DNA of 64,000 bases from Geothermobacter ehrlichii (lineage in GTDB: Bacteria > Desulfobacterota > Desulfuromonadia > Desulfuromonadales > Geothermobacteraceae), in assembly GCF_008124615.1 (NCBI RefSeq), contig NZ_VNIB01000001.1, positions 248,001-312,000 on the forward strand, in the 5' to 3' direction. Positions 3,045 to 14,928 of the stretch are shown one piece after another. The position numbers were made by a program, and so were the translations under genes. The notes under the pieces are model-generated. The model had not been told where the DNA came from, made no database searches, and worked only from the letters and a program-made list of their open reading frames with translations. Each line of letters opens with the position of its first letter. The first letter of the stretch is position 1.

Positions 3045-3803
3045 ATGAAGTTTGGAAGGTTTTTGACAGTAGTGTTTTTTTATGTCTATGCCCTTGAAAA
3101 AAAGGAGTGCAAAGATGGGTTTCTTGGCATTCTTTGGTGGGTTATAGACCCTTTGATTTATATGGTGGCTTTTTACGCTATCTTTGCGCTTGGTCTGCGA
3201 GGAAAGGGGACGGAGTTTGCTCCTTTTCTTTTGTGTGGTCTTGTTCCATGGAAATGGTTTGCAAGCTCGATAAACAGGGCTACTGTATCAATAAAGAAAA
3301 ATTCTCAGCTGATAAAACAGGTTTACTTGCCAAAATATGTATTTCCAAGTGTTGAAATTGTTAGGGGTGGTTTTAAGTTTTTGATTTCTTTTTTTGTTCT
3401 TGTTTTGTTCCTGTTTTTTTATAAAGGTTGTTTGATTGACTTATTTTATATTGTGCCAGTATTTATTGCCCAGATGTTTTTTATTTTTTCTCTTGGAATG
3501 TTGCTTTCTTCATTTTATCCTTTTTTGCCGGATATTAAGCTTGTAGTGGAAAACATGATCATGTTTCTGTTTTTTGTTTCTGGAATTTTTTTTGACATAG
3601 ACAAGTTCAGCCCCGAAGTCAGGCAGATTTTCATGCTCAATCCTATGGCAATATTGATCAAGGCTTTCAGAAGGGTTCTGCTCGACAACGATTTTCCGGA
3701 TGTTGGGCAGCTGCTCTATGTCTTCCTGCTCTCTCTGATTCTGTTTATTGCCGCGCTCTGCATACTCAAGCGCTTTGATCGTTTCTATTCGAAGATTGTC
3801 TGA
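3045..3803 (+). CDS. ABC-2 type polysaccharide export permease (Wzm/KpsM-like)
   Basis: A 252-residue integral membrane protein with about six hydrophobic segments, typical in length for Wzm/KpsM. The charged N-terminus followed by KECKDGFLGILWWVIDPL resembles the amphipathic gate helix of O-antigen ABC permeases, and GLVPWKWFASSINR is a typical family stretch. It would form the inner-membrane channel that moves lipid-linked glycan to the periplasm, powered by the ATPase encoded one base downstream. The gene is very AT-rich compared with its neighbours and is probably horizontally acquired. The ribosome site (GAGTGA) is weak. Confidence 0.88.
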   Translation: MKFGRFLTVVFFYVYALEKKECKDGFLGILWWVIDPLIYMVAFYAIFALGLRGKGTEFAPFLLCGLVPWKWFASSINRATVSIKKNSQLIKQVYLPKYVFPSVEIVRGGFKFLISFFVLVLFLFFYKGCLIDLFYIVPVFIAQMFFIFSLGMLLSSFYPFLPDIKLVVENMIMFLFFVSGIFFDIDKFSPEVRQIFMLNPMAILIKAFRRVLLDNDFPDVGQLLYVFLLSLILFIAALCILKRFDRFYSKIV

Positions 3804-3804
3804 T

Positions 3805-4497
3805 ATGTCAGCTGTTTCCATAAGGGTCGAGGGTCTTGGCGTCTACTACCGGCGATGGTCGGGGTTCCTGCGGAAGGACAGGTTTTGGGCCCTTGAGGAT
3901 GTGTCCTTCGAGGTGGCTCGGGGGGAAACCTTTGGCGTAATCGGCCGGAACGGGGCCGGCAAGAGCACGCTGCTGAGCGTTTTGTCGGGCATCTGTGCGC
4001 CTGACCGCGGGTCGGTTGAACTGTTCGGGGGGCGGGCGTCGCTGCTGTCCCTGCAGGTTGGGTTTGTCAAGGAACTTTCTGGACGCGACAATGCCCTGCT
4101 TGGGGCTCTTCTGATGGGGGTCGAGTTGAAAACAGCCAGAAAGCGTCTGAACGATGTGGTTCGCTTTGCAGGCCTCGAAGAGACTATCGATCAGCCGTTT
4201 GAAACCTATTCAGCCGGCATGAAAGCCAGACTGGGTTTTTCGGTGGCCTTTCATGCCCAGCCGGATATCATTCTCCTCGATGAAGTTCTCGGTGTTGGTG
4301 ATGCTGCCTTCAAGAAGAAGTCCTCACAGGCCATGAAGGAGCTCATCTCCTCGCACCGAACCGTGGTGCTCGTATCCCATAACAGCGAGACGATTCTGGA
4401 ACACTGTGACCGTGTTTTATGGCTGGAGCGGGGGCGTGTAAAGCAAGTGGGACGACCGGAAGATGTTGTTGCCGAATACGAACAGACAGTGAAGTGA
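3805..4497 (+). CDS. ABC transporter ATPase for polysaccharide export (Wzt/KpsT-like)
   Basis: A 230-residue nucleotide-binding subunit. It has Walker A GRNGAGKST near residue 47, a signature loop in the YSAGMKARLGF form typical of Wzt/KpsT near 135, and Walker B IILLDEVLGVGD near 155. It stops after the ATPase domain, so it lacks the C-terminal carbohydrate-binding domain that lets some Wzt proteins recognise a capped glycan; in this it resembles KpsT. The ATG at 3805 is one base after the permease stop, so the pair is translationally coupled. A longer frame from 3748 would run inside the permease and is less likely. Confidence 0.93.
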   Translation: MSAVSIRVEGLGVYYRRWSGFLRKDRFWALEDVSFEVARGETFGVIGRNGAGKSTLLSVLSGICAPDRGSVELFGGRASLLSLQVGFVKELSGRDNALLGALLMGVELKTARKRLNDVVRFAGLEETIDQPFETYSAGMKARLGFSVAFHAQPDIILLDEVLGVGDAAFKKKSSQAMKELISSHRTVVLVSHNSETILEHCDRVLWLERGRVKQVGRPEDVVAEYEQTVK

Positions 4498-4551: not shown

Positions 4552-5409
4552 ATGACACTGGCAATATTCGATAAATTTATCCGAAGAGTCAACCGGGATC
4601 GAAGGTGTGTTATCGTACACGATCATCTCTTCAAAAATGCCGGTACGACCATCGATTGGGTTCTGAAAAAAAATTTCGGATCAACTTTCGTCGATCACCG
4701 CGATGATGTGTCGATGAAAAAGGGGGCCGAGTACCTTGGGCCCTATATCGTCAAAAACAGAAAAATCGTTGCCATCAGCTCGCATCATATTGTTCTTCCT
4801 CTTCCCTCTCTGCCTGGTGTCAATATCGAGCTGCTGAAAATGTTCAGACACCCTTTGGCGCGCGTCCTTTCTGTCTATTCTTTCGAGAAAAGACAGAAAG
4901 AGCAGACCTTGGGGGCGAAGGTTGCTCAAAGCTCCAGTTTCCGGGAGTATCTGGCATGGCGGTTGTCAAAGGACTCGCCAGGGGTCATTCGCAATTTTCA
5001 TGTGCGCCGACTGCTCCCCGGCCTTATGCGCAACAAGGAGATCAGCGATCAGGAATTCAACATGGCGATCGAAACATTGGAGGGCATGAAATACTTCGGC
5101 CTTGTCGAAGAATTCGATGACAGCATGATTCTCTTTGAAACCAGATTGCGAGAATATTTTCCCGACCTGGATTTTGCCTACAAGGCCCAAAATGTTGGTC
5201 GTGGATTGCCTAAGGAGATTGATGAGGATGTGAGCCGTTTGCGCGCCATGGCCGGCGAAGAGCTGTATGCCCGCCTGGTTGAGGCAAACCGTTTCGACCT
5301 CGAACTGTACCGTTTGGCACGTGACCGGTTTTCCTGCTTTTTGAACGGGCTTTTCGAGCTTGACAAAAAGCGGGCCGATTTCCGTCGTCGCTGCCTTGCG
5401 CTGGTTTGA
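4552..5409 (+). CDS. Sulfotransferase family 2-like protein
   Basis: A 285-residue protein with the sulfotransferase-2/carbohydrate-sulfotransferase type of PAPS site: HDHLFKNAGTTI near residue 22 as the 5'-phosphosulfate loop, and MFRHPLARVLSVYSF near 100 as the 3'-phosphate site. This HxxKNAGT form is the one found in enzymes that sulfate glycans. No signal peptide or membrane segment is seen, so it should act in the cytoplasm before export. It lies 54 bases after the ABC ATPase and 21 bases before the fusion gene, in one operon-like run. The acceptor is unknown. Confidence 0.82.
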   Translation: MTLAIFDKFIRRVNRDRRCVIVHDHLFKNAGTTIDWVLKKNFGSTFVDHRDDVSMKKGAEYLGPYIVKNRKIVAISSHHIVLPLPSLPGVNIELLKMFRHPLARVLSVYSFEKRQKEQTLGAKVAQSSSFREYLAWRLSKDSPGVIRNFHVRRLLPGLMRNKEISDQEFNMAIETLEGMKYFGLVEEFDDSMILFETRLREYFPDLDFAYKAQNVGRGLPKEIDEDVSRLRAMAGEELYARLVEANRFDLELYRLARDRFSCFLNGLFELDKKRADFRRRCLALV

Positions 5410-5430: not shown

Positions 5431-8400
5431 ATGGAAGATCGAGAAAAGAGTCTGCTTCTTGTTGCGGGAATGCACCGTAGCGGCACATCGGCCGTTGCTG
5501 GCGCGCTACGTTTTTACGGATTTGATCTCGGAGAGGATCTCCTGCCGGCCAAGAAGGACAATCCCAAGGGGTTTTGGGAGCATAAGGCCGTCGTTGCATT
5601 CAATGATGATTTGCTTTCTTCTCTGGATAGCCGTTGGAATGATCCGTTTATGTTGCCCGAGGATGGTTTTGATGAGGGGAGGGCGGACCAACTTGCCATG
5701 CTGCTGGAGAAGGAGTTCGGCCCGCTTGCCCGGCCATGTGTCAAGGATCCCCGGATCTGTCGTTTGCTTCCCCTGTGGCAGCAGGCGCTGGAAAGGCTTG
5801 GCTGGCAGGCCCAATATTTGGTTGTTTTCCGGCACCCCGGAAGTGTTGCGGCATCTCTTGCTCATCGTAACGGTATCCCCCCGAATGAGGGATTGGCATT
5901 GTGGCTCAGCTACACTCTTTCCTTGCTGAAATCGCTTCCTAACGAGGGTGTCGCCTTTGTCTATTATGATGATTTTCTGGACGATCCGGCCGCCATTCTG
6001 TCCGAAAGATTGGACCGGCTCTTTCCCGCCGAGTCGTTGTTGCCTGATACGGTAGGTCTGAAAAATTTCGTCGATCGTTCTCTTTGTCACCATTGGACAG
6101 AACATGCCCGAAATGGTGATGCTGACATGATCCGGCAGCTCTCGGTGGAGATATTTGACTTTCTGAAGTTTCTCGCCGCCGGTCGGACTCAGTGGAAAAG
6201 CCAAGAAATCGCTGATTTCGTGAGCAGGTTTCGTTCCCTGGAAACTGCCGGGAAGGCCTGGGGAAGGAGCGCGCTGATCGCGGATTTCGGTTCCCGGATC
6301 TCGTATCTGGAGGCCGAACTTCAGGACTCGAACAACAGGTGCCAAGAACTTCGTCGGGAGTTAAACAACCAGCTGCAGGAGCTGAATGCCAGACAGCAGG
6401 AGCTGAATGCCAAACAGCAGGAATTGAACGCCAAACAGCAGGAATTGAACGCCAAACAGCAGGAATTGAACGCCAAACAGCAGGAATTGAACGCCAAACA
6501 GCAGGAATTGAACGCCAAGCAGCGTCAACTGGATGAGATTTATTCTTCACGGTCCTGGAAAGTTGCCAGGGTTTTGAGCCGTGCTTGGCGAGCCTTGCCG
6601 AAGCCTGAACAGCTACAGGAACTCATCTTTCGTCTGGCCAAGCGGGCCTATCACCGCCTCCCGTTGAATATGCGGACAAAAAACAGGCTTCGCTCCGTTC
6701 TGCAGAGGGCTTTTCCCGTGCTCAACAGAGCCAGGGGCGGCAGCGGCAATCAGTCGGGGAATGTTGCGACCGGATTGGGGGCGCAGATCAGGGAGCTGGA
6801 AAGTGCGGTCGACGCCTTGGCTCTCGATGACCTTGATTTCCGGCCTCGGGAGGCAAATCCGCTGGTCTCTCTGATTGTGCCCGTCCACAACAACCTCGAC
6901 TATACGGTTCGGTGTCTGAAGTCCATCTACAGATCCGGGAGCGATATCGATTACGAAGTCATCCTCGTTGACGATCTCTCTGGGGACAACACACCGAAGG
7001 TTGTACAGAAAATCACGGGGCTGGTCTATGTGCGAAACAGGGAAAACCTCGGTTTTCTCAGATCGTGCAACCTGGGTGCCCGAAAAGCGAAAGGTCGTTA
7101 CCTTGTCTTTCTCAATAACGATACGCTGGTTTTTCCCGGCTGGCTCAGTGCCTTGCTCGAACCGTTTCAGCGGGACGACAAGGTTGGCCTTGTCGGTGCG
7201 AAGCTGATTTTTCCGGATGGCCGTCTGCAGGAAGCGGGAGGAATTGTCTGGCGGGATGGTAGTGCCTGGAATTTTGGCCGTCTTGAGGATCCTGAAGCAC
7301 CTGAATACAATTACCTCAGGCAGGTTGACTATCTTTCTGCTGCCTGTATCTGTGTTCCGAAAATCCTTTTTGACCAGCTCGGGGGGTTTGATGAACGTTT
7401 CACTCCTGCTTATTACGAGGACACCGACCTGGCCTTCTCCGTTCGTAAGAAGGGGTTCAAGGTCCTGTATCAACCCCGCTGCCGGGTCGTGCACTATGAA
7501 GGAGTCAGTTGCGGAGCGGATCTCGGGCAGGGGGTCAAGCGCTACCAGCTGATCAACGCCGAGAAGTTTCGCGACAAGTGGCGGGACGTTCTGAAACACC
7601 ATTCGCCCAATGGTCATTTTCCTGAAAGGGAAAAGGACCGCTACTGCAGGGCCCGGGTTCTGGTCGTCGATGCCCTTGTCCCCACCCCTGACCGGGATTC
7701 CGGTTCGCTGCGAATGTTCAATATATTGAAAATTCTGGTCGAAATGGGCTGCAAAGTTACCTTTGTTCCCGAAAACCTTCAGTATCTCGGGGGCTATGTT
7801 GAAACACTTCAGGAGATGGGGATAGAAGTTCTTTACGCCCCCTATGTGTGTCATCTGGGAAGCTACATGGAGCGAACGAGAGGGCTTTATGATGTGGTCG
7901 TTCTCAGTCGGCCTTACGTTGCCGGACTCTGGATGGACACGGCCCGGAAAAATTACCCGGACGCGACATTGATCTACGACACTGTCGACCTTCATTTCCT
8001 GCGGGAGAGGCGGCAGGCGGAAGTGGAACAGAACCACCGGCTGTTCAGGCAGGCCGAGGAGACCGAGGTTCTCGAAACTGGCCTCATGCGCAAGGCTGAT
8101 ACGACCTGGGTCGTCAGTCCGTACGAGCAGGACCTGTTGCGGGGCCGCTACCCGAAACTGCGTGTTGAAGTGCTGTCCAATGTTCACGAGGTTTTTGGCC
8201 GGGCGCGACCATTCGAAGACAGGCGGGATATTCTCTTTGTTGGTGGGTTCAATCACCCGCCGAATGTCGATGCCGTGAGGTTTTTTGTGTCCGAAATCTG
8301 GCCCGGTATCAGGGAGGATAATCCTGGACTGAAGTTTTATGTGGTGGGCAGTGACGTGCCGGATGAGATTCGATCGCTGGCGGATGACACCATTATCGTG

Positions 8401-8739
8401 ACCGGATATGTAGAGGATTTAGCTCCCTATTTCAATCGCTGTCTCATGTCCGTGGCGCCTTTGCGTTACGGTGCCGGGGTCAAGGGGAAGATCAACATGA
8501 GCATGAGTTACGGCGTGCCTGTGGTGGCGACGAGTGTGGGGGTCGAGGGAATGTCGCTCGAGCACGGTGTGGATGTTCTTGTTGGTGACAGCCCGGATGA
8601 ATTTGCCCGGTTGGTGACCAGGCTGTGCCGGGATAAAGAATTGTGGAACAGGCTGTCGGATAATGGAATGAGAAACTTGCAGAAGCATTTTTCGTTCGAT
8701 GCGGCACGCACTGTCCTGGAAAAGATCCTGACGAACTGA
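5431..8739 (+). CDS. Trimodular sulfotransferase / coiled coil / GT2 / GT4 glycosyltransferase fusion
   Basis: An 1102-residue protein with three enzyme-like modules. Residues 1-245 are a sulfotransferase, with PAPS loop AGMHRSGTSAVAG near 11 and 3'-phosphate segment VFRHPGSVAASL near 132. Residues 295-368 are a coiled coil made largely of perfect heptads (NAKQQEL). Residues 475-720 are a GT2 domain with SLIVPVHNN, a DD nucleotide-sugar motif and YYEDTDLAF. Residues 740-1102 are a GT-B fold domain resembling GT4, with FVGGFNHPPN and GVPVVATSVG. It probably adds two sugars and a sulfate to a lipid-linked glycan at the cytoplasmic face. The 21-bp repeats encoding the coil could change its length without breaking frame. 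Confidence 0.88.
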   Translation: MEDREKSLLLVAGMHRSGTSAVAGALRFYGFDLGEDLLPAKKDNPKGFWEHKAVVAFNDDLLSSLDSRWNDPFMLPEDGFDEGRADQLAMLLEKEFGPLARPCVKDPRICRLLPLWQQALERLGWQAQYLVVFRHPGSVAASLAHRNGIPPNEGLALWLSYTLSLLKSLPNEGVAFVYYDDFLDDPAAILSERLDRLFPAESLLPDTVGLKNFVDRSLCHHWTEHARNGDADMIRQLSVEIFDFLKFLAAGRTQWKSQEIADFVSRFRSLETAGKAWGRSALIADFGSRISYLEAELQDSNNRCQELRRELNNQLQELNARQQELNAKQQELNAKQQELNAKQQELNAKQQELNAKQQELNAKQRQLDEIYSSRSWKVARVLSRAWRALPKPEQLQELIFRLAKRAYHRLPLNMRTKNRLRSVLQRAFPVLNRARGGSGNQSGNVATGLGAQIRELESAVDALALDDLDFRPREANPLVSLIVPVHNNLDYTVRCLKSIYRSGSDIDYEVILVDDLSGDNTPKVVQKITGLVYVRNRENLGFLRSCNLGARKAKGRYLVFLNNDTLVFPGWLSALLEPFQRDDKVGLVGAKLIFPDGRLQEAGGIVWRDGSAWNFGRLEDPEAPEYNYLRQVDYLSAACICVPKILFDQLGGFDERFTPAYYEDTDLAFSVRKKGFKVLYQPRCRVVHYEGVSCGADLGQGVKRYQLINAEKFRDKWRDVLKHHSPNGHFPEREKDRYCRARVLVVDALVPTPDRDSGSLRMFNILKILVEMGCKVTFVPENLQYLGGYVETLQEMGIEVLYAPYVCHLGSYMERTRGLYDVVVLSRPYVAGLWMDTARKNYPDATLIYDTVDLHFLRERRQAEVEQNHRLFRQAEETEVLETGLMRKADTTWVVSPYEQDLLRGRYPKLRVEVLSNVHEVFGRARPFEDRRDILFVGGFNHPPNVDAVRFFVSEIWPGIREDNPGLKFYVVGSDVPDEIRSLADDTIIVTGYVEDLAPYFNRCLMSVAPLRYGAGVKGKINMSMSYGVPVVATSVGVEGMSLEHGVDVLVGDSPDEFARLVTRLCRDKELWNRLSDNGMRNLQKHFSFDAARTVLEKILTN
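6385..6531 (+). repeat. Tandem array of a 21-bp unit, seven copies, inside the fusion gene
   Basis: Seven consecutive 21-base units each encode one heptad (NARQQEL, then NAKQQEL copies, then NAKQRQL). Units at 6427, 6448, 6469 and 6490 are identical, and the unit at 6406 differs by one base. Because 21 is a multiple of three, copy-number change by slippage would lengthen or shorten the coiled coil without a frameshift. Identity at silent positions indicates recent duplication rather than selection on the protein alone. Confidence 0.95.
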
Positions 8740-9500: not shown

Positions 9501-10514
9501 TTAGCTTTTTTTCGTGTAGCTTTGTATTAATGTTTCCGTTGATGGAATTTTTATATTTGGCAATATTTGAATTAATTTTTCGGTAAGTTCTTCAATTTTT
9601 TTCCTGTCAAGATTATCGATTGTTTCTGTTGGAAATGTCGATTGCTCCCTGAACTTTAATTCCATGCCATTTTTTAAGTAAATTTCTGATGTTCTTTTAT
9701 TGCATTTTTTGTATTTGTTTATCATTACATTATATAGGTCGAGAGATAACATCGGGCTTCGATCTCCATTGTATGTTGTTGCCAACGTGCGAAACGCCTG
9801 ATAGAGTTCTCTCGATGGGGGTACGCCACTCAGATTGAGCAAGCGTTTGTATTCGATCAGATCGCATCCCAGTGACGGATTCTGATCTTCTGTAGGGGGG
9901 GATATTCTTTCCAGCAGGGAAGCGTCAACGCGCAGAGCCTGTGTCATGAAGTCGGTAATGATGTCATTGCCTTCCAGCATGTTTCTGTCATAGACTCGAA
10001 CAATCAGATTTCTGCGGCCAAACGCCTCTTCCCACTTTTCAAGAAACTGGTCGTAATGTGCACGGAAAATCTGCCTTTCATATTGTTCTATAGTGAGTGT
10101 GAGATCTGTATTCTGAATAGCTTGAGCGTATGACGATATAAGATAACCTGTTTGTTCACGAAGATAAACAATAATGATTGGATTGTAGATTCCTACAACC
10201 TTTTTGATTAGTTGTGGATCACAGTTCTGGAAGGCTTCGCTGCTCAGGATGACGTTATATTTTTCAATGCAACATTTAATTTCTTTAAGCAATGATTGTC
10301 TTGTCTTGTGTTCCTCTTGTGTTAATTGTTTTTTGTTTTTTAATCGTTTTGGAGTGAACTGTTCAGCGAACTGATGGTGACCAAACCCCTTGATGGCCAA
10401 CCGTGGGTAATAAAAACCCATTTTTTTGAGATATTCAGTGTTTGTGTACAAAAACTTCTGAAGGGAACTCGTCCCGGTTTTATGCCTGCCAATGTGAATG
10501 AAAAGTTTTTTCAT
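9501..10514 (-). CDS. Sulfotransferase-like protein, AT-rich
   Basis: A 337-residue protein starting with KKLFIHIGRHKTGTSSLQ, a clear PAPS-loop-like P-loop of the bacterial sulfotransferase-like type. A second conserved block around IVYLREQTGYLISSYAQ near 140 fits the 3'-phosphate site. The gene is much more AT-rich than its neighbours and is reversed relative to the operon, so it looks like a separate acquisition. The ATG complement at 10512-10514 is preferred; a start ten codons further upstream (10544) lies inside the divergent gene. Function beyond probable sulfuryl transfer cannot be stated. Confidence 0.75.
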   Translation of the reverse strand: MKKLFIHIGRHKTGTSSLQKFLYTNTEYLKKMGFYYPRLAIKGFGHHQFAEQFTPKRLKNKKQLTQEEHKTRQSLLKEIKCCIEKYNVILSSEAFQNCDPQLIKKVVGIYNPIIIVYLREQTGYLISSYAQAIQNTDLTLTIEQYERQIFRAHYDQFLEKWEEAFGRRNLIVRVYDRNMLEGNDIITDFMTQALRVDASLLERISPPTEDQNPSLGCDLIEYKRLLNLSGVPPSRELYQAFRTLATTYNGDRSPMLSLDLYNVMINKYKKCNKRTSEIYLKNGMELKFREQSTFPTETIDNLDRKKIEELTEKLIQILPNIKIPSTETLIQSYTKKS

Positions 10515-10518
10515 GGCT

Positions 10519-11445
10519 ATGAAATTAAAGTGTGGATTATTCATTCCTGTCTGTGACGATAGTTATGTCGTAAGACAGGCTATGTCGGTCGCCGAACAGT
10601 GCCTCCAGCCCGATCGAATCCTGATAGTCGATTCTTCGGGTTCTCAGATGGATCTTTCGCCGTATCAGGTGCTAGATGCCGAAGTTGTGAAGATTCCCCG
10701 ACAGGATTTTGATCATGGGGGAACGCGCAACCTTGCCCTTGACGTACTGAGCGGATGTGATGTCATCGTCTATTTGACGCAGGACGCCGTTTTTGCGTCT
10801 AGAACTTCTTTGAGGAATCTCATGTGTGCCTTTCGGGTTGGCGAGGTATCTGCTGCCTATGGTAGGCACGTGCCCTGGGCCCGGTCAAGTGCCATCGCAC
10901 GTCATGCCAGACTTTACAATTATCCCGATCGTCCATCGTACAAAGTACTGGCAGATGCTTCCGAGCAGGGTATCAAGGCAATTTTTATGTCAAATGCATT
11001 TGCTGCCTATCGTCTGTCGGCCCTGAAAGAGATTGGTGGATTTCGAGCTCCGGTTATTATGGGGGAGGATATGGAAGCGGCGGCGCGCCTGTTGCTCGCA
11101 GGTTGCAAGATTGCCTATGTCGCCGAGGCCAGAGTGTATCACAGCCACGAGTATGGTTTGCGGGATGAATTCCGAAGGTATTTTGACATTGGAGTTTTTC
11201 ACCGGGAGCAAGGCTGGATTCTGAAAAGGTTCGGAAGGGCCGAAGGAGAAGGCAGGCGTTTCGTTCGGTCAGAATTGAGTTACCTTCGCCAGCATGCTCC
11301 ATGGCGCATTCCCGAGGCCCTCTTGCGCACCTGTCTTAAATATCTTGGCTATCGGGCAGGGAAAAACTATCATGTGCTGCCTGAATCTTTGCTGCCCAAG
11401 CTGAGCATGAATCGGAACTACTGGCCACGCCGGCGGGTTGCTTGA
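10519..11445 (+). CDS. GT2 family glycosyltransferase (rhamnosyltransferase-like)
   Basis: A 308-residue GT-A fold glycosyltransferase. It opens with the GLFIPVCDDS Rossmann segment, has VDSSGSQMD and LTQDAVF in the nucleotide-sugar region and GEDMEAAARLL as the acceptor/catalytic motif near residue 185. The QDFDHGGTRNLAL stretch is typical of rhamnosyl-transferring GT2 enzymes such as WcaA/RfbF relatives. Three ATGs are possible (10498, 10513, 10519); 10519 gives the usual short lead before the first strand. None has a good ribosome site, and all overlap or touch the start of the reversed sulfotransferase gene. It would extend the lipid-linked glycan in the cytoplasm. Confidence 0.85.
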   Translation: MKLKCGLFIPVCDDSYVVRQAMSVAEQCLQPDRILIVDSSGSQMDLSPYQVLDAEVVKIPRQDFDHGGTRNLALDVLSGCDVIVYLTQDAVFASRTSLRNLMCAFRVGEVSAAYGRHVPWARSSAIARHARLYNYPDRPSYKVLADASEQGIKAIFMSNAFAAYRLSALKEIGGFRAPVIMGEDMEAAARLLLAGCKIAYVAEARVYHSHEYGLRDEFRRYFDIGVFHREQGWILKRFGRAEGEGRRFVRSELSYLRQHAPWRIPEALLRTCLKYLGYRAGKNYHVLPESLLPKLSMNRNYWPRRRVA

Positions 11446-11485: not shown

Positions 11486-12901
11486 GTGCTGGTTTGGACC
11501 CTCTTTCTGATCATCGTCGACTTGGTGGCGCTTGTTGGTGCCTTTTTTGCCGGGGGGGAGATCCTTCTGGCTTGGCGCGACCTCGACAGTTATCCATCCT
11601 ATCTCGGGACCTGGGTCCTTTGTTACTCCTCTGGAGTCCCCTTTCTTCTGGCCTGGTTCTGGGTGCGCAGCCACTATGTTCGCCGAAAGCCGTTCTGGGA
11701 CGAACTGCGGGATCTGCTGCAGGGAGTATTTGTCTTTTCGATTCTCTGTGCGGCCTTCCTCTATCTGTCGAAAACGCCTTTTTCCCGTCTGTGGTTTCTT
11801 GGCAGCATGTCGTTTGCGGGCATTTTTCTTCCGCTGTTCCGCTCGCTTTACAAGGCGTCTCTTCTCTGGCTGGGGCATTGGAGGTTGCCGGTTGTGATCA
11901 TTGGCAACGGCCCCAATGCCGTCGACGCAGCCATTGCCCTGAAAAGCGAACGTCTGATGGGGTTCCAGATCCGCAAATTCGTTGCTCTGCCCGAGCATGA
12001 CGGTTACGAACAGGACAGAATAAAGGTGAATGGAGATGCCTATCCTGTCGAAAGAGCCGATGGCGATATCCTGGATCACCTTGGCGACCCCGGGATCAGC
12101 AATGTCGTTGTTGCACTCGAAGTAGGCGGGGTTGTGCGCGAGATTCGCACTATCGAGAAACTGACGCGAGCTGTCAGGAATGTCTACATCGTGCCGGCAC
12201 TCAGGGGGCTGCCCCTGTATGGCATGGAAATCAACTATTTTTTTCGGCACGAGGTTCTCTTGTTGCGGTTGCGCAACAATCTTGCCCGGGTCACCTCGAA
12301 AATCGTCAAGCGCTCATTCGACCTCTTTGCAGCGTTGTCACTGATGATCGCCCTTGCTCCTCTCTTCTGGGTGCTGGTTTGGCTCATCCGCAGGGATGGT
12401 GCCCCTGCCATCTACGCGCATATGCGCATAGGCAGGGGGGGGGAGGAGTTCCCCTGTCTCAAGTTCCGGACCATGGTTCCGGATGCCGAAGCCGTGCTGG
12501 AGAAGATCCTTTCCGAGGATGAAGAAGCCCGCAGGGAGTGGGAAGCGAGCTACAAGCTGAAAAACGACCCGAGGATTACCCGCATCGGGCATTTTCTCAG
12601 AAAGACCAGTCTCGATGAACTGCCTCAGCTGTGGAACGTTCTGCGTGGCGAGATGAGCCTGGTCGGTCCGCGTCCCATCATCCGGGAAGAGATCGACAAG
12701 TACGGCGACGATTTTTACTTCTACAAGGTGGCGCGTCCCGGCATAACGGGCCTGTGGCAGGTGAGCGGCCGCAGCGACATCGACTATCCGAGCCGGGTCG
12801 CGCTGGATGTGTGGTATGTGAAAAACTGGTCGCTCTGGTATGATATTGCCATTCTGTTCAAAACCATCAGGGTGGTCGTGCAGCGCAGCGGTGCCTACTG
12901 A
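11486..12901 (+). CDS. Undecaprenyl-phosphate sugar phosphotransferase, WbaP-like
   Basis: A 471-residue polyprenyl-phosphate hexose-1-phosphate transferase, which starts surface-glycan assembly on undecaprenyl phosphate at the inner membrane. Four hydrophobic segments lie in the first 140 residues, then a CoA-binding-like domain (VVIIGNGPNAVDAA). The catalytic domain starts near 272, with KRSFDLFAAL, KFRTMVPDAE, DELPQLWNVLRGEMSLVGPRP and PGITGLWQVSGR. The full WbaP length and all catalytic blocks are intact. The GTG at 11486 has a GGAG box 7 bases upstream. It is the last gene of the glycan locus; the first sugar (galactose or another hexose) cannot be assigned. Confidence 0.92.
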   Translation: MLVWTLFLIIVDLVALVGAFFAGGEILLAWRDLDSYPSYLGTWVLCYSSGVPFLLAWFWVRSHYVRRKPFWDELRDLLQGVFVFSILCAAFLYLSKTPFSRLWFLGSMSFAGIFLPLFRSLYKASLLWLGHWRLPVVIIGNGPNAVDAAIALKSERLMGFQIRKFVALPEHDGYEQDRIKVNGDAYPVERADGDILDHLGDPGISNVVVALEVGGVVREIRTIEKLTRAVRNVYIVPALRGLPLYGMEINYFFRHEVLLLRLRNNLARVTSKIVKRSFDLFAALSLMIALAPLFWVLVWLIRRDGAPAIYAHMRIGRGGEEFPCLKFRTMVPDAEAVLEKILSEDEEARREWEASYKLKNDPRITRIGHFLRKTSLDELPQLWNVLRGEMSLVGPRPIIREEIDKYGDDFYFYKVARPGITGLWQVSGRSDIDYPSRVALDVWYVKNWSLWYDIAILFKTIRVVVQRSGAY

Positions 12902-13816: not shown

Positions 13817-13841
13817 GGCAGGGACGGGTGACGGGTGACGA

Positions 13842-13897
13842 GGGACGGGTGACGAGGGACGGGTGACGAGGGACGGGTGACGAGGGACGGGTGACGA
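13842..13897 (+). repeat. Four perfect 14-bp tandem units
   Basis: Units of GGGACGGGTGACGA repeat four times without a mismatch, after a partial copy from 13821. They are composed of two related 7-bp words. The array sits between the yicC stop and the ribosome site of the four-helix-bundle gene. It is too short and unspaced to be a CRISPR array. Confidence 0.97.
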
Positions 13898-13909
13898 GGA
13901 GGGGGACCG

Positions 13910-14263
13910 TTGAAAAGCCATAAGGATCTGTTGGTCTGGCAGAAGAGTGTGGATTTTGTTGCTGCCATTTACGCGGCGACCAAAAGTTGGCCGAGCGAGG
14001 AAATCTATGGTTTGACGTCCCAGATTCGTCGGGCGGCAGTTTCTGTTCCTTGCAACATTGCTGAAGGGGCAGGTCGGGGAGGACGAAGAGAATACACCCG
14101 GTTTCTTGCCATTGCCCTGGGATCTTTGGCTGAAGTTGAGACCCAGCTTGTGATAGCGGATCGTCTGGGATATATGAGGGACTGCTCTGAGCTGAATGAG
14201 AGTCTTCAGGAAATAAGGCGTATGCTGGTCGGTTTGAACAAAAGTCTGGAGGTTGCATGTTGA
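13910..14263 (+). CDS. Four-helix-bundle protein (23S rRNA intervening-sequence protein family)
   Basis: A 117-residue helical protein of the family found in 23S rRNA intervening sequences and as stand-alone genes, structurally related to Avd of diversity-generating retroelements. Diagnostic blocks are KDLLVWQKSVDFV at the start, LTSQIRRAAVSVPCNIAEGAGR in the middle and REYTRFLAIALGSLAEVETQL. The TTG start has a strong GGAGGGGG ribosome site ending 4 bases upstream, supplied by the edge of the repeat array. Its biochemical role is not established for the family. It lies inside the yicC-gmk operon and its stop overlaps the preferred gmk start, so it is co-expressed with essential genes. Confidence 0.88.
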   Translation: MKSHKDLLVWQKSVDFVAAIYAATKSWPSEEIYGLTSQIRRAAVSVPCNIAEGAGRGGRREYTRFLAIALGSLAEVETQLVIADRLGYMRDCSELNESLQEIRRMLVGLNKSLEVAC

Positions 14264-14928
14264 CTCGCCCCCCGTCACTCGTCCCTCGTCACTTGTCCCT
14301 CTCCGTGCCCCGAAACGGAATTCTGTTTGTTGTATCCGCGCCGTCCGGGGCCGGAAAAACGACGCTCTGTCGTTACCTTGTTGACATGTTTCCCGAAATT
14401 CGGCAATCTATTTCGTTCACGACCCGCACTCCCCGCGAGGGAGAGGTCGACGGCGTGGACTACCATTTTGTCGGGCGCGAGACGTTCGAACGGATGGTCG
14501 CCGAGGGGGCCTTCGCCGAATGGGCCGAGGTTCACGGCAATCTCTACGGCACCTCGCTGCGGACCCTGCAGCAGGCCCGGGAAGCCGGTGAGGACATTCT
14601 GCTCGACATCGACTGCCAGGGTGCCGCCCAGTTGCGGGACAGGCTGGACGATGCCGTCTTTGTCTTCATCCTGCCACCGTCGCTGAAAGAGCTGGAGCGG
14701 CGGTTGCGCGGCCGGCAGACCGACGCCGAGGATGTCATCGCCCGCCGGCTGGCCAATGCCCGCCGGGAGATCGCTCAGGCGCACTGGTACGATTATCTTC
14801 TGGTCAATGCCGATCTGGAAGAGTCGGCCGCACAGCTCAGGGCCATTGTCATGGCCGAACGGTGCCGGACCCGGCGCTTCCGGGATGCGCCGGCCCGCTG
14901 GTACGGCATTGACGAACCGGATTGCTGA
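14257..14928 (+). CDS. gmk: Guanylate kinase
   Basis: Phosphorylates GMP to GDP in nucleotide synthesis. The P-loop SAPSGAGKTTLC, the GMP-binding SFTTRTPREGEVDGVDYHFV and the DIDCQGAAQLRD segment are intact. The ATG at 14257 overlaps the four-helix-bundle stop and has GGAGG 4 bases upstream. It adds a 16-residue leader (rich in Pro, Ser, Leu, Arg) that is simply the translated repeat array. The family-like start would be GTG 14305, which has no ribosome site. The native start region therefore seems to have been replaced by the inserted unit. Confidence 0.95.
   Translation: MLTRPPSLVPRHLSLSVPRNGILFVVSAPSGAGKTTLCRYLVDMFPEIRQSISFTTRTPREGEVDGVDYHFVGRETFERMVAEGAFAEWAEVHGNLYGTSLRTLQQAREAGEDILLDIDCQGAAQLRDRLDDAVFVFILPPSLKELERRLRGRQTDAEDVIARRLANARREIAQAHWYDYLLVNADLEESAAQLRAIVMAERCRTRRFRDAPARWYGIDEPDC

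Follow-up and report, generated by a model that had tools for sequence, protein, structure and literature searches.

A single-chain sulfotransferase, coiled-coil and glycosyltransferase protein of Geothermobacter ehrlichii with a possible role in capping an exported polysaccharide

The fusion gene and its locus

The window analysed here is a 64,000 nt stretch of Geothermobacter ehrlichii DNA (GCF_008124615.1, NZ_VNIB01000001.1, positions 248,001-312,000 of the forward strand). Nucleotides 5431-8739 (+ strand) form an uninterrupted single frame of 1102 amino acids that had been predicted to join a sulfotransferase (ST), a coiled coil and two glycosyltransferases (GTs) in one polypeptide; the frame, Pfam searches, a family profile and the modelled fold bear this out. 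The ST module (residues 1-256; 5431-6198, +), defined by its AlphaFold model and by PDB and profile matches, is followed by a continuous helix (residues 257-371; 6199-6543, +), which we propose to be a coiled-coil ruler and which appears both in the AlphaFold model and as coiled-coil-like Pfam matches at residues ~288-384. A junction recognised from the model and from relatives (residues 372-470; 6544-6840, +) then leads to a GT2 module of GT-A fold (residues 471-735; 6841-7635, +), with PDB matches and conserved NND and ED motifs, and to a GT4-type module of GT-B fold (residues 740-1102; 7648-8736, +). The Pfam matches of these two modules are PF00535 at residues 480-598 (E 3.8e-26) and PF13692 at 932-1068 (E 1.5e-24), so that a domain search returned the GT2, GT4-type and coiled-coil-like parts, the ST being nearly invisible alone and seen through its family profile.

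The full-length AlphaFold model (pLDDT 84.8) comprises the helix at 257-371, the GT-A domain and the GT-B domain. A fold search with this model returned mostly matches to the GT modules, among them GalNAc-transferases, K4 chondroitin polymerase and the GT-B enzymes BshA and MshA. The modelled helix is terminated by an SRSWK motif that recurs in relatives as SxSWKxTxPLR; the junction helices beyond it (375-433) are of low confidence, and by analogy with WbdD residues 372-470 may be a membrane-proximal anchor. The usual second Glu of EX7E is missing from the GT4 module: residues 1014-1025 (~8470-8505) carry a Met where relatives have this Glu, and in the subclade the site varies (M, Q, T) with two nearby lysines conserved.

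G+C content is 0.44-0.54 across ~2-12 kb of the window compared with ~0.62 elsewhere. The fusion gene is preceded, in order and all on the + strand, by a CysN-CysC fusion for PAPS supply (242-2233), a separate sulfotransferase (PF00685; 2234-3037), a Wzm-like ABC-2 transporter permease (3045-3803), a Wzt-like ABC ATPase (3748-4497) which completes the ABC-2 exporter, and a weak Sulfotransfer_2-like gene (4552-5409). The DNA that immediately precedes the window holds CysD and a second APS kinase; genes there were named from sequence, except for two families that were searched for, as GmhA-like, HldE, GmhB, a nucleotide-sugar dehydrogenase, RmlB/D/A/C, APS kinase and CysD. Past the fusion come a further separate sulfotransferase of the Sulfotransfer_2 type (PF03567; 8762-9454, -), a P-loop gene, a GT2 gene and a WbaP-type undecaprenyl-phosphate sugar-phosphate transferase for chain initiation (11486-12901, +; TIGR03022 above cut-off). 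The P-loop gene (9501-10544, -) encodes a 347-aa protein with a GRHKTGTSSLQ loop and no credible Pfam match, possibly another sulfotransferase. A putative O-antigen-ligase-like membrane protein, so named from its sequence, is encoded at L146 1861-3087.

A second CysD gene in the same genome (contig C6, L150/L151) is 99.7% identical to the copy beside the window; the accompanying second CysN shows 88.5% identity over the stretch, with 100% in its first part, and both adjoin PAPS-reductase-family genes. The window's cysDN pair thus appears to have arisen by recent duplication or by conversion.

A sulfotransferase family with exchangeable partners

Used as a single sequence, the N-terminal module had almost no matches in Pfam, NCBIfam or the PDB (residues 1-285 against PF13469, Sulfotransfer_3: E 0.084) and its identity was therefore drawn from a family profile and from the fold. 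The profile was built from 25 relatives, 22 of which match PF13469 individually, and it matches SULT1A1 (1cjm, E 9.2e-7) and a tyrosylprotein sulfotransferase, TPST (8w5z, E 9.5e-7). In the profile alignments GMHRSGTS (residues 13-20; 5467-5490, +), the expected 5'-phosphosulfate loop, falls on GMPRSGTT of TPST; KDPR (residues 105-108; 5743-5754, +) falls on KDPF of TPST; and R134-x7-S142 (5830-5856, +), the expected 3'-phosphate-binding motif, falls on the R-x7-S of SULT1A1. Common to the ST relatives are GMHRSGTS, N44, G47, E50, KDPR, R134, P136, S142, R146 and W158, while GMHRSGTS, N44, G47, E50, K105-D106-P107, R134 and S142 are invariant in 78 ST sequences. The AlphaFold model of residues 1-285 has a pLDDT of 92.3, and each of its best five PDB matches (E 1.1e-5 to 3.6e-3) is a sulfotransferase, TPST1 and TPST2 with bound PAP being among them. 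Given TM-scores of ~0.43-0.52 we regard the module as a distant member.

By family, on its motifs and modelled fold, the N-terminal module is a PAPS-type sulfotransferase, as had been predicted, and at this level the check gave no sign that a PAPS pocket is lacking. It has the fold, phosphosulfate loop, KDP lysine and R-x7-S motif of the PAPS-dependent sulfotransferases (PF13469/TPST/SULT) but differs from them in belonging to a distinct GMHRSGTS subfamily that is often fused to coils and GTs. Catalytic transfer of sulfate from PAPS is suggested by fusion and linkage to APS kinase: at locus L060 an APS kinase (PF01583, E 2.9e-51) is fused to an ST-family module, and at seven further loci an APS kinase is encoded close to the ST. 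The L060 frame (1057-2505; 483 aa) places a PAPS-maker and a PAPS-user in one chain. Two other loci (L049, L050) encode triple fusions of GT2, GMHRSGTS sulfotransferase and a Sulfotransfer_1-like module, with two sulfotransferase families per chain.

Across the phylum, 52 of the 395 genomes sampled hold the ST family; for the order the count is only 7 of 136. Among 80 named loci, ten (L067, L068, L069, L090, L094, L097, L120, L126, L133 and L144) encode ST, linker, GT2 and GT4 in this order with homologous GT modules; their sources are Lysobacteraceae/Rhodanobacteraceae, Halieaceae, other Gammaproteobacteria and one Campylobacterota MAG, and the proteins are 34-38% identical to the window fusion overall, with 48-55% identity in the GT2 module and 10-19% in the middle region. 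An assembly artefact or accidental fusion is thereby refuted and its probability is negligible; in its favour, an ortholog was not found in the only other sampled genome of the genus, which is 84% complete.

The architecture varies among relatives. The L090 gene has a stop that interrupts GT4; L133 (1186-5256) encodes a 1357-aa ST-coil-GT2-GT4-ST frame in which a 42% homolog of the window's 4552-5409 product follows the GT4 module; and in L082 the ST-coil and GT2-GT4 parts are adjacent separate ORFs. In L085 an in-frame stop (6438-6440) lies within an 84-bp repeat array between the ST-coil and GT2-GT4 halves. Homologous GT2-GT4 modules also occur with a methyltransferase, either at the same place as the ST (L021, L022) or C-terminally (L023); with an N-terminal GT2 and coil (L157-L159, L161); and without a partner (L155, L156). 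Since a GT2 can stand N-terminal of the GT2-GT4 pair, and since L045 and L046 have the ST-GT2-GT4 order without a coil, this position is not restricted to terminators.

Wzt homologs were encoded within the fetched stretch for 41 of 112 ST ORFs and directly upstream of the ST gene in 19, of which 16 have an extended Wzt. All four extended Wzt proteins tested carry Wzt_C (PF14524), the cap-binding domain, which is absent from the Wzt of the window and of L126.

The closest relative with published genetics comes from Aeromonas salmonicida. L101 4047-7415 matches the 1122-aa Aeromonas salmonicida 'WbbB' (wbsalmo ORF20), an assignment made because the flanking Wzt (438), WecB (370) and 355-aa GT fit the published gene table (Table 2, PMC4483657). 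This gene was described as capsule-synthesis/GT1/GT2, with no mention of a sulfotransferase at the N-terminus of its product; its deletion abolishes O-antigen, for which no sulfate was reported (PMC4483657). We find that the N-terminus is a GMHRSGTS module. The protein therefore shares with the window fusion an N-terminal GMHRSGTS sulfotransferase, a coil, two GTs and an ABC-2 exporter locus, but GT4 precedes GT2 (ST-coil-GT4-GT2) and its Wzt has Wzt_C. That no sulfate was found in this O-antigen is compatible with one sulfate at the chain end or, equally, with an inactive ST module.

The helix and its 21-bp repeats

The modelled helix spans 115 residues, or ~17 nm at 0.15 nm per residue, in a monomer model with modest pLDDT (~40-76 over most of its length). 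It is encoded in part by a tandem array of 7.1 copies of a 21-bp unit (6375-6523, +; 96% match), each copy specifying one QQELNAK heptad with one leucine per turn; the later five units are identical except for one base, silent positions included.

In the parts of the 112 ST ORFs that follow the ST domain and belong to no other domain, we found 41 tandem arrays, spread over 33 ORFs. All periods are divisible by 3, and 32 of the 41 are multiples of 21 (binomial p 8e-20 for a null of 1/7, which exaggerates the contrast as coils are heptad-periodic regardless). Of the 49 arrays in the remainder of these loci, 7 have a period divisible by 21 (Fisher p 7e-10), two of these seven being one methyltransferase-coil-GT2-GT4 gene counted twice (L003/L021). 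Between related pairs with at least 58% ST identity, indels of at least 5 aa were multiples of 7 in 12 of 18 cases (p 6e-7, with a cut-off set after viewing and pairs that are not independent). Two Pseudomonas proteins have ST domains 96% identical; the difference between them is exactly 14 residues and lies in the predicted coil. Variation in coil length has already been noted for E. coli capsule methyltransferases (PMC13171606); here, the array periods and indels suggest that the length of the putative ruler evolves by whole heptads.

Comparison with terminator-ruler-polymerase proteins and a proposed role

ABC-transporter O-antigen pathways include 'terminator - molecular ruler - polymerase' proteins, whose layout the window fusion shares in its predicted series of enzyme, coil and two GTs. 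Within one chain, Klebsiella O12 WbbB and O7 ORF6 each hold a cap enzyme, a coil and two GTs, and in characterised systems the terminator is always distal (PMC11231755); the window ST is likewise distal, a long modelled helix of modest confidence standing between it and the GTs. WbbB (Klebsiella O12/Raoultella terrigena) also shares the N-terminal position of the cap enzyme and the ABC-transporter locus (PMC11231755). The window fusion differs from it in having a sulfotransferase where WbbB proper has a GT99 Kdo transferase, in its GT2 and GT4-type modules in place of GT102/GT103, and in a Wzt that lacks the cap-binding domain. ORF6, a methyltransferase-kinase followed by a coil and two GT2 modules, has the same general order (PMC11231755) but a methylphosphate cap, a second GT2 and an extra CBM-like domain. 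In E. coli O9a WbdD and WbdA, a coiled coil holds the transferase ~20 nm off with the polymerase opposite (PMC5082667); these are two proteins, with a methylphosphate cap and a mannosyltransferase polymerase, and split forms likewise occur within the window's ST family (L082). The missing Wzt_C is the main departure of the fusion from these prototypes, and because of it we do not count the fusion fully among the cap-coupled export systems.

The caps described by Kelly et al. are Kdo, methyl and methylphosphate, and their text contains no word starting with 'sulfat' (PMC11231755). In the literature that could be searched, an incomplete search that may have missed prior proposals, no sulfotransferase was described as a chain terminator. 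The original remark that no characterised protein was known with this order of domains thus holds for the exact order within that literature, but not for the general layout, which is characterised with other enzymes at the place of the ST.

The predicted part in polysaccharide assembly is in keeping, by analogy, with both layout and locus. Our leading reading, held with about even confidence, is that the fusion is a single-chain polysaccharide assembly protein like WbbB or WbdD plus WbdA, with an ST-made sulfate as the chain-ending cap. Computation yields the module folds and motifs, the long helix, recurrence, modular swapping and the nearby PAPS genes and exporter; the mechanism, for which we infer that the ST is active, what it acts on, and that it caps while the helix measures, would run as follows. 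The C-terminal GT2 and GT4 modules would lengthen an undecaprenyl-linked chain at the membrane while the long helix kept the PAPS-dependent ST ~17 nm off, so that only sufficiently long chains could reach it; sulfation of the non-reducing end would then stop growth and set chain length before export by the ABC transporter.

A terminal sulfate cap is favoured by the invariant PAPS motifs and sulfotransferase fold; by APS kinase fused or adjacent to family members and the PAPS genes beside the window gene; by the 115-residue helix between ST and GTs in a layout shared with characterised proteins; by the methyltransferase at the ST's place in L021 and L022 and the split form; by ST genes directly after wzt, mostly extended, with Wzt_C in those tested; by the A. 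salmonicida protein that is needed for an O-antigen with sulfate unreported; and by array periods and indels that favour whole heptads. It is weakened by the lack of Wzt_C in the window and L126, unlike the prototypes; by the equal compatibility of the A. salmonicida result with an inactive ST; by relatives of the same class with an N-terminal GT2 and by the coil-less L045 and L046; by the modest confidence of the coil model and the single leucine per turn of QQELNAK; and by a GT4 without the second EX7E Glu.

The original prediction had the fused enzymes possibly fixing the repeat pattern. Two results tell against this, namely the position of the ST at the far end of a ~17 nm modelled helix, where chain terminators lie (PMC11231755), and the failure to find sulfate in the O-antigen of A. 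salmonicida, source of the closest relative with published genetics (PMC4483657); our preference for a terminal cap is nevertheless held with only about even confidence. Given the other sulfotransferase genes in the locus, the repeat is probably sulfated as well. That the fused ST itself sulfates every repeat or a regular subset during GT extension, with the coil as scaffold only, is unlikely but a serious contender: the locus has a PAPS supply and several sulfotransferases, a combination described as a hallmark of gene clusters for sulfated polysaccharides (PMC11641403), the window Wzt is without a cap-binding domain and some relatives have no coil, whereas standalone sulfotransferases are available for the repeat, in addition to the two results above.

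An ST module that is inactive, or is only a structural or binding domain of a modular GT protein, would account for an essential A. salmonicida protein without detected O-antigen sulfate and for the free swapping of N-terminal partners, yet it is improbable against PAPS motifs invariant across 78 diverse relatives and the fusion and linkage to APS kinase. Still less probable is an ST acting on some other acceptor, such as a lipid-linked primer, an adaptor sugar or a protein; the best fold matches do include tyrosylprotein sulfotransferases, but the family is consistently clustered with glycan export and GT genes.

The broader statement, that sulfate is a further cap beside Kdo, methyl and methylphosphate in a widespread family of single-chain and split proteins and that glycan length is retuned by whole heptads (multiples of 21 bp), is tentative and falls a little short of an even chance. 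If true, it would give a function to a large family now annotated merely as sulfotransferase or glycosyltransferase, and would explain why a locus needs such a protein although no sulfate is seen in its repeat unit, as in A. salmonicida. Coil length would then predict modal chain length, and repeat change in heptad units would be a simple DNA mechanism for the evolution of surface-glycan length.

Short repeats of another kind also occur in the window. Five perfect 14-bp repeats (13823-13899) lie between YicC-like and guanylate-kinase-like genes, and a related 14-bp array (14263-14301) is found just within the following frame.
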